The notes beneath the pieces are model-generated. The model made no database searches, was not told the origin of the DNA, and saw nothing but the letters and a program-made list of their open reading frames with translations. From positions 124,001 through 188,000 of the forward strand of contig NZ_REFJ01000004.1 in NCBI RefSeq assembly GCF_003688415.1: a DNA stretch of 64,000 bases, read 5' to 3'. Positions 8,023 to 56,888 of this stretch are shown here, piece after piece. The position numbers and the translations under genes are program-made. Every line of letters starts with the position of its first letter. The first letter of the stretch is position 1. Origin of the DNA: Umboniibacter marinipuniceus. Lineage in GTDB: Bacteria > Pseudomonadota > Gammaproteobacteria > Pseudomonadales > DSM-25080.

Positions 8023-8380
<358 letters not shown>

Positions 8381-14686: not shown

Positions 14687-14724
14687 AAAAAAAGCGCCCC
14701 CTGTTAACCAAGGCGCGCTCTTTT
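14687..14724 (-). terminator. Rho-independent terminator of the rplS operon
   Basis: On the minus strand AGCGCGCC and GGGGCGCT pair (one mismatch), followed by seven T. It lies 36 bp beyond the rplS stop and separates the operon from the desaturase gene. Confidence 0.85.
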
Positions 14725-14759
14725 GGTGCTACCGAAGTAGCAAGATGGTTAAGCTAAAC

Positions 14760-15113
14760 TTAGCTCAACTTCTCTTTGATACGTGCTGAACGACCAGAAC
14801 GCTCACGCAAGTAGTACAACTTCGCGCGACGAACGTCACCACGACGCTTAACGCTAATGCTGTCAACCAACGGGCTGTAAGTCTGGAACGTACGCTCTAC
14901 ACCAATACCGTGAGAAATCTTACGGACGGTGAAAGCTGAGTTTAGGCTGCGGTTACGCTTAGCAATAACAACACCTTCAAACGCCTGTAGACGCTCACGG
15001 TTGCCTTCTTTAACCTTAACCTGAACAACGACTGTATCACCAGGTCCGAAGACTGGGATTTCTTTGTTCATCTGCTCTGCTTCAAGCTGAGCAATAATTT
15101 TGTTGGCGCTCAT
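14760..15113 (-). CDS. rplS: 50S ribosomal protein L19
   Basis: Large-subunit protein at the 30S-50S interface, 117 residues from the ATG at 15111-15113. The frame could be extended upstream by 14 codons, but the family begins with M(S)xNKIIxQLE, and AGGAG sits 7 bp before this ATG. Diagnostic segments are [27 protein letters not shown] and [11 protein letters not shown]. It is the last gene of rpsP-rimM-trmD-rplS and is followed by a strong terminator. Confidence 0.98.
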
Positions 15114-15171
15114 TTCAGTGCTCCTGTTAATCACTTTTTCCAGCTTGGCTATCAAAGCCAGGCATCATAAA

Positions 15172-15939
15172 TTATTTCTGTTTCCGTTCCTCGAGGTATT
15201 CCTCAAGTAAACGCTGCTGTTCGTCGCTCAGCTCCAGACGCTGTAGCAAATCCAAACGCCGCTCGTAAGTGCGGCCCAACGACTGTTTTAATCGCCATTG
15301 GCGAATTCGCTCATGATTTCCCGACAATAACACCTCGGGAACCGTTTCGCCTTCGTATACTTCTGGACGAGTATAGTGAGGGCAATCGAGCAATCCATCC
15401 GAAAATGAATCTTGCTCGGCTGATTGGTTGTGTCCAAGAACTCCCGGTAATAATCGCACTATTGCGTCAATCATCACCATGGCGCCCAGCTCACCGCCGC
15501 TCAACACGTAATCACCGATAGACCATTCTTCGTCTATCTCGGCATTGATCAATCGTTCATCAACACCTTCGTAGCGCCCGGCCAGAAAAACCAAACCGGG
15601 TTCTGCCGCCAACCGCTGCGCTGCGCGCTGATTGAACGGCTGTCCCTGAGGGGACAAATAGATAACCTTAGAACCTTCGCCCGCCCATGCTTTAGCCGCA
15701 TGAAGCGCTTGTTTAAGTGGCTCAACCTTCATCAACATACCAGGGCCGCCCCCGTAAGGACGGTCATCGACAGTATGATGTCGATCGTGCGTAAAACTAC
15801 GCGGATTCCAAGCTTCCAGTGCAACCGATCCCTGATCTATTGCTCTGCTAGATACACCATATTGGCTAATAGCAGAGAGCATTTCAGGGAATATGCTCAC
15901 AACCCCATATCGTTTTGCGCGACGACGATCGCTACTCAA
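15172..15939 (-). CDS. trmD: tRNA (guanine37-N1)-methyltransferase TrmD
   Basis: SAM-dependent SPOUT-class enzyme that makes m1G37 in tRNAs with G36, preventing +1 frameshifts. The 255 residues match. Evidence includes VVSIFPEML at the N-terminus, [11 protein letters not shown], the trefoil-knot region [13 protein letters not shown] and [20 protein letters not shown], and [11 protein letters not shown]. The reading frame has no ATG near the expected N-terminus. It starts at TTG (15937-15939), which overlaps the rimM stop and therefore looks translationally coupled. Confidence 0.96.
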
Positions 15940-16472
15940 AACTCAGGGTCCCAGTCGATCAGCATTTCACCGACTGCGATATCCACATTGAGGATGTACT
16001 GTTCGGGCACGAAGGGAATAAGGCGCTCGCGTTCATCGATGCTACCTTTACAGCCGCGTACTACAAGGACGTCGTTAGCACCCGTCTCAACTAGGCGCTG
16101 TACCTTTCCCAAGAGTTGACGTTCGCCGCTGTACTCACTGACAACATGCAAACCAATCAACTGACTCCAGTAGTACTCTCCCTCGTCTAGCGGTGGTAAC
16201 TGGCTATTAGCTACCACACAATCCGATTGACAGTAAGTTTGTGCAATATCGCGGTCATCGACACCTTTAAGGTGGGCAATTAAGCCCTTCCCATGTCTCT
16301 GCCACTGATCAACCTCAACTGTTTTATCGCCTTGCGGCGTTTTAACAGTCCAGGGCTGGTAATCAAATATATTTTCAATGGGTGAGGTATAAGAATAAAT
16401 CTTAACCCAACCTTTCACTCCGAATACCGAAGTGATTTTCCCTACGGTTAACAATTTCGCGTTATTTTCCAT
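15936..16472 (-). CDS. rimM: Ribosome maturation factor RimM
   Basis: 16S rRNA processing protein that binds S19 and assists 30S head assembly. The 178 residues are of normal length. The N-terminal RimM beta-barrel shows [20 protein letters not shown]. The C-terminal PRC-barrel shows [24 protein letters not shown] and [16 protein letters not shown]. It sits between rpsP and trmD, 12 bp after rpsP, and its stop overlaps the trmD start. Confidence 0.97.
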
Positions 16473-16484
16473 AGGGGCAGCGAA

Positions 16485-16724
16485 TTACTTCGCTTCTTTC
16501 AATAGCTTAGCAACGCGATCAGTTGGTTGTGCGCCTTTGCTCAACCAGTACTCTGCACGTTCGCTATCAACGCGTAAACGCTCTTCTTGACCACGGGCTA
16601 CCGGGTTGAAGAAGCCAACACGCTCAATGAAACGGCCGTCACGCGAATTGCGTACGTCACTTACTGTGATGTGGTAGAACGGGCGCTTTTTTGAGCCACC
16701 ACGTGCTAGTCGAATAGTAACCAT
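16485..16724 (-). CDS. rpsP: 30S ribosomal protein S16
   Basis: Small-subunit assembly protein of 79 residues beginning [18 protein letters not shown], the standard S16 start. The upstream in-frame extension to 16793 has no family similarity and overlaps the promoter leader, so ATG 16722-16724 is chosen. It is the first gene of the rpsP-rimM-trmD-rplS operon, with a well-formed sigma-70 promoter about 95-125 bp upstream. Confidence 0.98.
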
Positions 16725-16819
16725 ACGTATACGTATCCTGTAGTTAAAATTAGCACGAAAAGCGTGCAAACATCTTAGAGCCTCAAAACCCATGCACAGG
16801 CATAGCTTTGAGGCGCGCT

Positions 16820-16848
16820 ATCATACGGAAAAAAAGCCCTCGATGCAA
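16820..16848 (-). promoter_or_regulatory. Sigma-70 promoter of the rpsP-rimM-trmD-rplS operon
   Basis: The minus strand reads TTGCAT, 17 bp, TATGAT. Both hexamers are close to consensus and the spacing is optimal. Transcription would start near 16813, giving a leader of about 90 nt before rpsP. It lies in the ffh/rpsP gap. Confidence 0.65.
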
Positions 16849-16912
16849 AGCCTAGTTTCCCCTTATAGAGAAAGGCGATTACACCAAGATGGAACTCGTA
16901 GCTAAAACTAGC

Positions 16913-23252: not shown

Positions 23253-23373
23253 CCAGCAAAGCTAAAACCAGCAAGGCTAAAACCAGCGAAGCTAAAACCA
23301 GCGAAGCTAAAACCAGCGAAGCTAAAACCAGCGAAGCTAAAACCCAGAGAGGTAACCCCCAGCGAGACTAAAA
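23253..23373. repeat. 15-bp minisatellite, about 8 units (six near-identical)
   Basis: The unit CCAGCGAAGCTAAAA is repeated head to tail: units at 23253, 23268, 23283, 23298, 23313 and 23328 differ by at most two bases. A degraded unit lies at 23343 and another recognisable one at 23359. Each unit encodes Pro-Ala-Lys-Leu-Lys (one has Arg), in the same frame as the preceding acyltransferase but after its stop and a second stop. No start codon is available, so it is not called as a gene. Confidence 0.95.
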
Positions 23374-54625: not shown

Positions 54626-55260
54626 TTACTTTGGCATTAAACGCCCTTTAGCCACTAACACCATCTTTACTAACTCAGCTAAAGAGTGTGTCTTCATCTT
54701 CTTCATTACTCGCCCGCGATGAATTTCGACGGTACGTTCAGAGATGCCTAGGTCAATACCAATCACCTTATTGGCATTGCCATCAACCATCATTTCCATC
54801 ACTTCGGTTTCACGCGCTGTGAGTGTAGCCAGGCGCTCCTGGACCACCCGCTTCTCGATGAGGAATTGACGCTTAGCGGCATCCTTGTCTAAAGCTCTGC
54901 TGATGGTATCGAGGAGCTCTTGCTCTCGATAGGGCTTAGTGACGAAATCTAATGCGCCATTTTGCATCGCTTCGACTGCCATTTGAATATCACCATGACC
55001 GGTTACGAAAATGATGGGCAGATTACAACCTAGTTCATTTAGGCGGCGATGGAGTTCCATGCCGTTCATACCAGGCATCCTGACATCCTGACATCCATCA
55101 CAATACAGCCGGACATTGATGAATTGTAGTCATCAAGGAATGCTTGCGCATCCGCATAAGTCTTGGCGGGTTGATCGACCGATTCCATCATTAATTCGAT
55201 AGAATCTCTAACTGCCTCATCGTCTTCAACGATGAATACCATTGCATTTTCTTCTGTCAT
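54626..55260 (-). pseudogene. FixJ/StyR-type response regulator, split by an 8-bp duplication
   Basis: Two overlapping minus-strand frames (55066-55260 and 54626-55078) together encode one NarL/FixJ-type regulator. The first has the receiver N-terminus (VFIVEDDEAVRDS; acceptor Asp56 in CIVMDVRM). The second continues GMNGMELHRRL, the receiver Thr/Lys (VTGHGD, VTKPY) and the LuxR-type HTH (LTARETEVMEMMVDGNANKVIG, SERTVEIHRGRVMKKM). Removing one copy of the 8-bp duplication at 55077-55092 restores a 208-residue protein of normal length. The second frame has its own ATG with AGGA upstream. It is divergent from a matching histidine kinase. It may be a pseudogene, a phase-off allele or a sequencing error. 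Confidence 0.85.
55077..55092. repeat. 8-bp tandem duplication (ATCCTGAC x2) inside the response regulator
   Basis: ATCCTGAC is repeated head to tail (55077-55084 and 55085-55092), followed by ATCC. One copy would keep the reading frame of the regulator; two copies shift it. See the split response regulator entry. Confidence 0.97.
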
Positions 55261-55361: not shown

Positions 55362-56888
55362 ATGGATCATCAAGAGATTGAAGAACAGGACTGCCTCCTG
55401 TTGGTTGACGACCACCCTACCGCACTGTCAATGTTGCAGCTAGTACTTGCTAACAAACCCTATCGTTTAGTGACAGCTAGCAACGGTCAAGAGGCGATAC
55501 GTCAGGCGAAATATCATCGTCCAGCCCTGGTTCTTCTTGATATCATGATGCCAGACATGGATGGCTTTGAAGTTTGCGAGAGGCTCAAAGCCGATGCAGA
55601 CACCGCTGATTCAGCCATTATTTTCCTCTCGGCAGTAGACGACAGCGAAGTAAAAGTTCGTGGATTTAATGTGGGTGCGGTTGATTATATCAACAAGCCC
55701 TTTTCGGGCCCGGAAGTCGTCGCTCGAGTCGAGACCCACCTGCGAACCAAACACCTAGAAGATCGACTTGCCCGACAGAATAGTCAGTTAGAGGCGCAAA
55801 ACCAACGGATACTCGAATCTATTAACGAAGGCATCATCGGCACCGATCGCGAGGGACGCATTACCCTCATAAACGATGCCGCTGAGCAAATGACCGGCTG
55901 GGCTAACCAATCCTTAATGGAGAAAAGTGTTAGCAACGTCTTCGAGGAGAGTGACCGACTGATACTCCAACAACTCATTACTCAGGGCCAAAGTTTTGCG
56001 AGTGAAACTATTGATATGCTATCGGCAAGCCAACGGGCTTTCCCGGTATCGCTATCCATTACACCTACTCGCTATCGCGGTGAGATTGAAGGTGCCGTAT
56101 TAGTTTTCCGAGACATCACAGAGCAGCTCGCTCAGGATGATGCGTTGAATAATGCCGCGGAGGAGCTCAAAGAACAGCGGGAACGGCTCGCTCATATCGA
56201 AAGGCTGAGCACCATGGGCGAAATGACGGCGGGGTTTGCCCATGAGGTGAATCAACCTCTCACTGCAATTTCCAATTATGCCCGCGTTTGCGAGCGCTTC
56301 GCGAATAAGCTAGATCACCCACCTGAGCGACTCATCGAAACGCTCCAGAAGATGGAAAAACAAGCACTCCGGGCCAGTGAGGTTATTCAGCGCTTAAGAG
56401 ACTTTGTGAAACGCCCCATTGATGGCCGCGCATTATACTCACCTAATGAGCTGCTGTTAGAGATTGTTCAACTCGCTGAGGTTGATGCGAGAAATAATGG
56501 TGTTCAGATTCACCTAGATTTGCAATTCGGCGATGAACAGGTTTTCGTGGATCCAATCCAAATTCAGCAGGTGGCACTCAACCTCATTCGGAATGGGCTT
56601 GAAGCTATGGCTGACAGCGCTGAAAAGGACCTCGGTCTCTGGGTTAAGGGGATTGTTTTGGGTGATAAGATCCAGGTGTCTATTCGTGACCGAGGCGTTG
56701 GCCTAGCTGAAGGCGCAGAGAATGAACTATTTAACCCTTTCTACACCACCAAGAAAAATGGCATGGGTATTGGCCTCAGCGTTTGCAATACCATCATTAA
56801 GGACCATCAGGGCCATATTGGCTATCGGCGCGAGCCTTCAGGTGGAACGACATTTTGGTTTGAGCTGCCAATAGGGTTAGCGGAATAG
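55362..56888 (+). CDS. Histidine kinase with receiver and PAS domains (REC-PAS-HisKA-HATPase)
   Basis: Soluble sensor kinase of 508 residues without membrane segments. The receiver (about 10-130) has acceptor Asp60 in LVLLDIMMPDMDG and the switch Lys in INKPF. A coiled linker and a PAS domain (about 148-258) follow. The HisKA domain carries His294 in GFAHEVNQPLTAISNY, the FixL/TtrS-type H box. The ATPase N box is NLIRNGLEA, and the G boxes are RDRGVG and GMGIGLSV. No heme-binding His of FixL is recognisable with confidence. The divergent FixJ-type regulator is its likely partner and is frameshifted here. Confidence 0.88.
   Translation: MDHQEIEEQDCLLLVDDHPTALSMLQLVLANKPYRLVTASNGQEAIRQAKYHRPALVLLDIMMPDMDGFEVCERLKADADTADSAIIFLSAVDDSEVKVRGFNVGAVDYINKPFSGPEVVARVETHLRTKHLEDRLARQNSQLEAQNQRILESINEGIIGTDREGRITLINDAAEQMTGWANQSLMEKSVSNVFEESDRLILQQLITQGQSFASETIDMLSASQRAFPVSLSITPTRYRGEIEGAVLVFRDITEQLAQDDALNNAAEELKEQRERLAHIERLSTMGEMTAGFAHEVNQPLTAISNYARVCERFANKLDHPPERLIETLQKMEKQALRASEVIQRLRDFVKRPIDGRALYSPNELLLEIVQLAEVDARNNGVQIHLDLQFGDEQVFVDPIQIQQVALNLIRNGLEAMADSAEKDLGLWVKGIVLGDKIQVSIRDRGVGLAEGAENELFNPFYTTKKNGMGIGLSVCNTIIKDHQGHIGYRREPSGGTTFWFELPIGLAE

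Follow-up and report, generated by a model that had tools for sequence, protein, structure and literature searches.

The closest described counterparts of this locus are duplications in the capsule genes of pneumococci and slippage-prone tracts in other bacterial genes. In the type 3 locus, cap8E and tts, tandem duplications arise spontaneously (Waite et al. 2001, 2003, as cited in PMC4022640); they are exact, lie within the gene and break its frame, and loss of one copy restores it. Such duplications revert, at a rate expected to be no more than about 1e-5 for insertions of 9 bp or less (PMC4022640). A review of phase variation requires reversible switching at a single locus, detectable without selection at about 1 in 1e5, and warns against applying the label to short chance tracts (PMC11868660). 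The same review covers an 8C-to-7C slippage lesion in the regulator gene mga, which is associated with laboratory growth and reversible in principle. At the protein level, the nearest relatives are the FixJ and StyR-type regulators (NCBIfam NF006900; PDB 5xso and 1yio), in which a receiver is joined to a LuxR-type helix-turn-helix in a protein of about 208 aa.

The present locus was found in the window, by which is meant the whole stretch of 64,000 nucleotides that was analyzed. The plus-strand sequence ATCCTGACATCCTGAC at 55077-55092 consists of two head-to-tail ATCCTGAC units, and this duplication cuts a regulator gene on the minus strand (55260-54626) into open reading frames (ORFs) of 64 and 150 aa. 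The features of the locus are:

55076-55096, no strand assigned: exact run of period 8 (TRF), 21 bp and 2.6 copies, with full ATCCTGAC units at 55077-55084 and 55085-55092.
55066-55260, minus strand: upstream ORF of 64 aa; the N-terminal half of the receiver, with Asp56, occupies residues 1-59 (Response_reg profile positions 1-54), and the last five residues are out of frame.
54626-55078, minus strand: downstream ORF, 150 aa from ATG 55078; the remaining receiver (Pfam Response_reg positions 52-110) and a LuxR/GerE helix-turn-helix.
55079-55089, minus strand: AGGA resembling a Shine-Dalgarno sequence, placed 7 nt before ATG 55078 and with a duplex energy of -4.4 kcal/mol.
55066-55069, minus strand: ATGA start-stop overlap, formed by an in-frame ATG at 55069 and the stop codon of the upstream ORF, where translation could also re-initiate.
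55362-56888, plus strand: FixL-like hybrid kinase (receiver-PAS-HisKA-HATPase), divergent and intact, the probable partner of the regulator.

ATG 55260, preceded at a distance of six bases by AAGG, is the start of the regulator gene, which would be expected to end at 54626. The receiver acceptor, Asp56, lies in the sequence IVMD of the upstream ORF. The frame shifts after residue 59, and five foreign residues follow before a TGA stop codon at 55068-55066; the downstream frame begins with MPGMNG at ATG 55078 and continues to 54626. The two ORFs match complementary parts of a single Pfam receiver profile, and the LuxR domain of the downstream ORF is complete (GerE match of 75.8 bits). An earlier note on this DNA had described an exact 8-bp tandem duplication that splits a FixJ-type regulator just past its phosphorylation site, with 208 residues encoded by the one-copy form and termination at residue 64 in the two-copy form. 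All of this is borne out by the units and frames given above, residues 1-58 and the downstream 150 together making 208. In simulated windows about one exact 8-bp tandem occurred per 64 kb, and a run of at least 21 bp was seen in 1 of 100. As bare sequence statistics the tandem is weak; its weight comes from its breaking a conserved gene exactly at that point.

The two halves together match Response_reg and GerE, the domain pair of FixJ-type regulators, and the orthologues carry both in one intact ORF. FixJ is the best-matching profile, and a FixL-like PAS kinase adjoins the gene, as in FixJ systems. However, the intact orthologue of the sister species scores 239.3 bits against the FixJ equivalog model NF006900, for which the curated cutoff is 255 (the split halves score 178.1 and 55.1 bits), and the kinase carries an additional receiver at its N terminus. 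By these scores and this architecture, the regulator is FixJ-type and not FixJ itself. The kinase is 89.5% identical over 505 aa to that of the sister species, a kinase of the same type is found close to the regulator in many relatives, and it is the probable partner of the broken regulator. A second FixJ-type regulator is encoded elsewhere in the genome with the broken allele (G000), at G000:C2:121077-121517 (L123); it is intact, 54% identical to the broken one and also present in the sister species, and is a possible partial back-up. Gene conversion or mis-assembly with this paralog as the source of the extra unit was considered and rejected, the paralog being intact and free of the tandem repeat.

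Within the genus, three genomes were compared: G000, a second genome (G001) and the sister species (G002). The G001 ortholog is intact, with an open frame of 208 codons. That of the sister species has one unit in one open frame (215 codons from stop to stop, a protein of 210 aa) and is 100% identical to the downstream 150 residues; in the DNA alignment with G000, an 8-base gap falls exactly on the repeat. At the DNA level, all 31 orthologs, comprising the sister species and 30 others mostly from the same order, have the core motif once and the frame open, and a split regulator gene was absent from these 31. The earlier note had looked to a single copy in every sister genome as a sign of assembly error. 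A single unit is indeed what all of them have, a result that fits an assembly error and a fresh mutation alike.

The age of the lesion was estimated from divergence on either side of it. Comparison of G000 with G002 gives 80 synonymous differences, which is saturation, and no amino-acid difference in the 150 codons downstream of it, and 12 synonymous differences and one amino-acid difference, with a dN/dS of about 0.015, in the 56 codons upstream. Neither half has acquired further stops. A neutral G000 branch would have accumulated roughly 120-360 non-synonymous changes, the figure varying with the value taken for dS, and the 0-1 amino-acid changes seen therefore imply that the break is either very young or not real. 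If it is real, the period of relaxed constraint would have occupied at most about 1-4% of the G000 branch since the split from G002, as a rough bound. An old pseudogene is excluded by the undecayed halves (no changes in 150 codons and 1 in 56), and with it the suggestion that decay in both halves might mark the gene as a plain pseudogene.

The most probable reading, to which a probability of about 0.7 is assigned, is that the two-unit form is a spontaneous and very recent slippage allele of the sequenced strain that causes loss of function and is revertible in principle. The reconstructed one-unit form holds CATCC-TGA-CATCC, a 5-bp direct repeat at a distance of 8, and short direct repeats at such a distance are a classical substrate for slippage. 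Replication mispairing at this repeat would have added one 8-bp unit. Translation from the normal start would then give a 64-residue stub ending inside the receiver, and the two-unit allele would yield no full-length regulator; at most, a C-terminal piece with the DNA-binding domain and no receiver might be made at low level if ribosomes re-initiate at ATG 55078 or 55069. The mutation most probably dates from the sequenced culture or from shortly before isolation. Loss of a unit would restore the frame, but rarely.

The earlier proposal that the duplication could revert is sound in principle, the lesion being a precise direct repeat. As with the pneumococcal duplications, it is an exact direct duplication within an ORF for which an intact allele exists, known here from relatives. 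In pneumococci, however, reversion has been seen in culture, whereas nothing at this locus points to reversion and its unit lies at the bottom of the size range or under it. Like the mga lesion, it would be a slippage event in a regulator gene during laboratory growth, although here we infer the culture origin, and the repeated element is an 8-bp unit and not a homopolymer. The locus is most likely a fresh instance of a well-known kind of mutation, which has abolished the function of a conserved FixJ-type regulator or at best changed it. The main practical caution is that this regulator, highly conserved across its genus, is probably missing from the sequenced strain, and that results on the physiology of that stock may not hold for the species. 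The locus also shows a recent slippage mutation cleanly and in a form that can be dated, and its importance would increase if both alleles were found together in nature.

The alternative that survives best, though an unlikely one, is that the second unit is a sequencing or assembly error and that the regulator gene of the cell itself, with a single unit, is intact. A population mixed for the two forms is a further possibility. Every relative has one unit, and both halves are pristine in a gene under strong constraint, as such an error would predict. The quality of the assembly argues against it, as the genome is in only 16 contigs and is 99.4% complete and 0.02% contaminated. Reads and k-mers are also much longer than a 21-bp run with an extra 8-bp unit, which is not the usual type of assembly mistake. 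In a survey of frame breaks, the 354-kb contig of G000 was compared with the homologous 293-kb contig of G002, on which 243 genes are shared. The regulator gene was the only one of the 243 to be broken in G000, the other 242 being free of frame breaks; four apparent breaks in G002 all lay at ORF N-termini, where they reflected stop-to-stop extensions, and were left out of the count of real breaks. A single break among 243 genes implies that errors are not frequent in the assembly as a whole and that broken genes are not common in the strain.

A functional split regulator, in which coupled translation would produce the stub and a working C-terminal piece of 147-150 aa, possibly constitutive, is considerably less probable than an error. 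The signals for re-initiation are ordinary ones: the duplex energy at ATG 55078 is close to that of genuine starts across the window (median -4.15) and of the native start (-4.0), in agreement with the earlier claim that the downstream ATG has a usable ribosome site. The further claim that its AGGA was supplied by the duplication holds in part. The duplication alters only the base preceding GGA, which takes the energy from -3.4 to -4.4, but GGA is already present at the same spacing in the one-unit form; a restart site that mostly predates the duplication is not an adaptation to it. The ATGA overlap, another feature that might be expected of coupled translation, is evidently coincidental, because those bases read as Met-Asn codons when the gene is intact.

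The downstream piece retains a complete LuxR domain, and the DNA-binding domain of FixJ can be active on its own. Some C-terminal piece may, on the strength of these start signals, be made from ATG 55078 or 55069; without the acceptor half, it could be either inactive or phosphorylation-independent. An altered, phosphorylation-independent activity could thus take the place of loss of function, as the two restart sites have ordinary ribosome-binding strength. However, the cut separates the acceptor-bearing strand from the rest of the receiver, which makes phospho-control unlikely, and too little time has passed since the lesion arose for any selection on the two pieces to show. Neither a slippery heptamer (X XXY YYZ) in the 64-nt overlap, nor unusual RNA structure at the locus (fold z-score 0.43), nor an Rfam match there was found. 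Without a heptamer or a distinctive RNA structure, the allele is not expected to yield full-length protein, and programmed -1 frameshifting was rejected on these grounds and on the absence of the split from relatives. The split receiver made by coupled translation that had been envisaged earlier is not supported, given the lack of a frameshift signal and of any relative with a split gene.

Less probable again is a phase-variable switch, in which frequent gain and loss of a unit would keep regulator-on and regulator-off cells in populations. The earlier note had raised this possibility, and the lesion has some of the expected properties: the length of the unit is not divisible by 3, as in coding-region contingency loci (PMC11868660), the two copies are exact and stand early in a regulatory gene, and the pneumococcal capsule genes offer documented cases of such reversible duplication (PMC4022640). 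Contingency loci, however, have tracts that are longer than chance and maintained in relatives. The tract here has only 2.6 units, with no sign of switching in either direction, and comparable 5-bp seeds at lag 8 occur by chance 48 times in the window. The seed at the regulator site is present in 0 of the 31 orthologs, the sister species included, and has not been kept by selection; nothing in these comparisons indicates that evolution has kept the site slippery. The reversion ceiling expected for insertions this short (PMC4022640) only reaches the lower limit for phase variation (PMC11868660), and no other of the 243 shared genes on the contig is broken by such a repeat. These points leave the idea with little to support it. 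Least probable of all is a natural on/off switch combining the two preceding alternatives, in which one-unit cells would be phospho-controlled, two-unit cells would re-initiate a receiver-less, constitutive or dominant DNA-binding piece, and populations would keep both.

Other repeats were noted in the same genome. Heptanucleotide arrays of up to 7-8 copies lie at G000:C4:211486-211555, 268077-268160 and 279517-279586 (L133 and L136); the first two are intergenic and the third overlaps the 3' end of an ATPase-like ORF, and their flanks align with G002 while the arrays themselves do not. At G000:C4:301419-301664 (L137), a minus-strand ORF of 81 aa, mostly alternating Arg-Ala and Arg-Val, lies over a 12-bp tandem repeat, and no homolog of this region was found in G002 contig C3. 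Within the window, a 15-bp unit is repeated about six times between convergent genes (23253-23344), and ATAG is repeated 9.5 times at 8023-8060, where it abuts the stop codon of a minus-strand ORF of 106 aa (8060-8380), the 3' end of which could be altered by changes in copy number. Separately, at 14701-16900 in the window, fading through 18400, rplS-trmD-rimM-rpsP is 97.3% identical to G002 with exact runs of 100-180 bp, against 72-81% in neighboring DNA, and looks like either an interspecies recombination tract or a region of very strong constraint.
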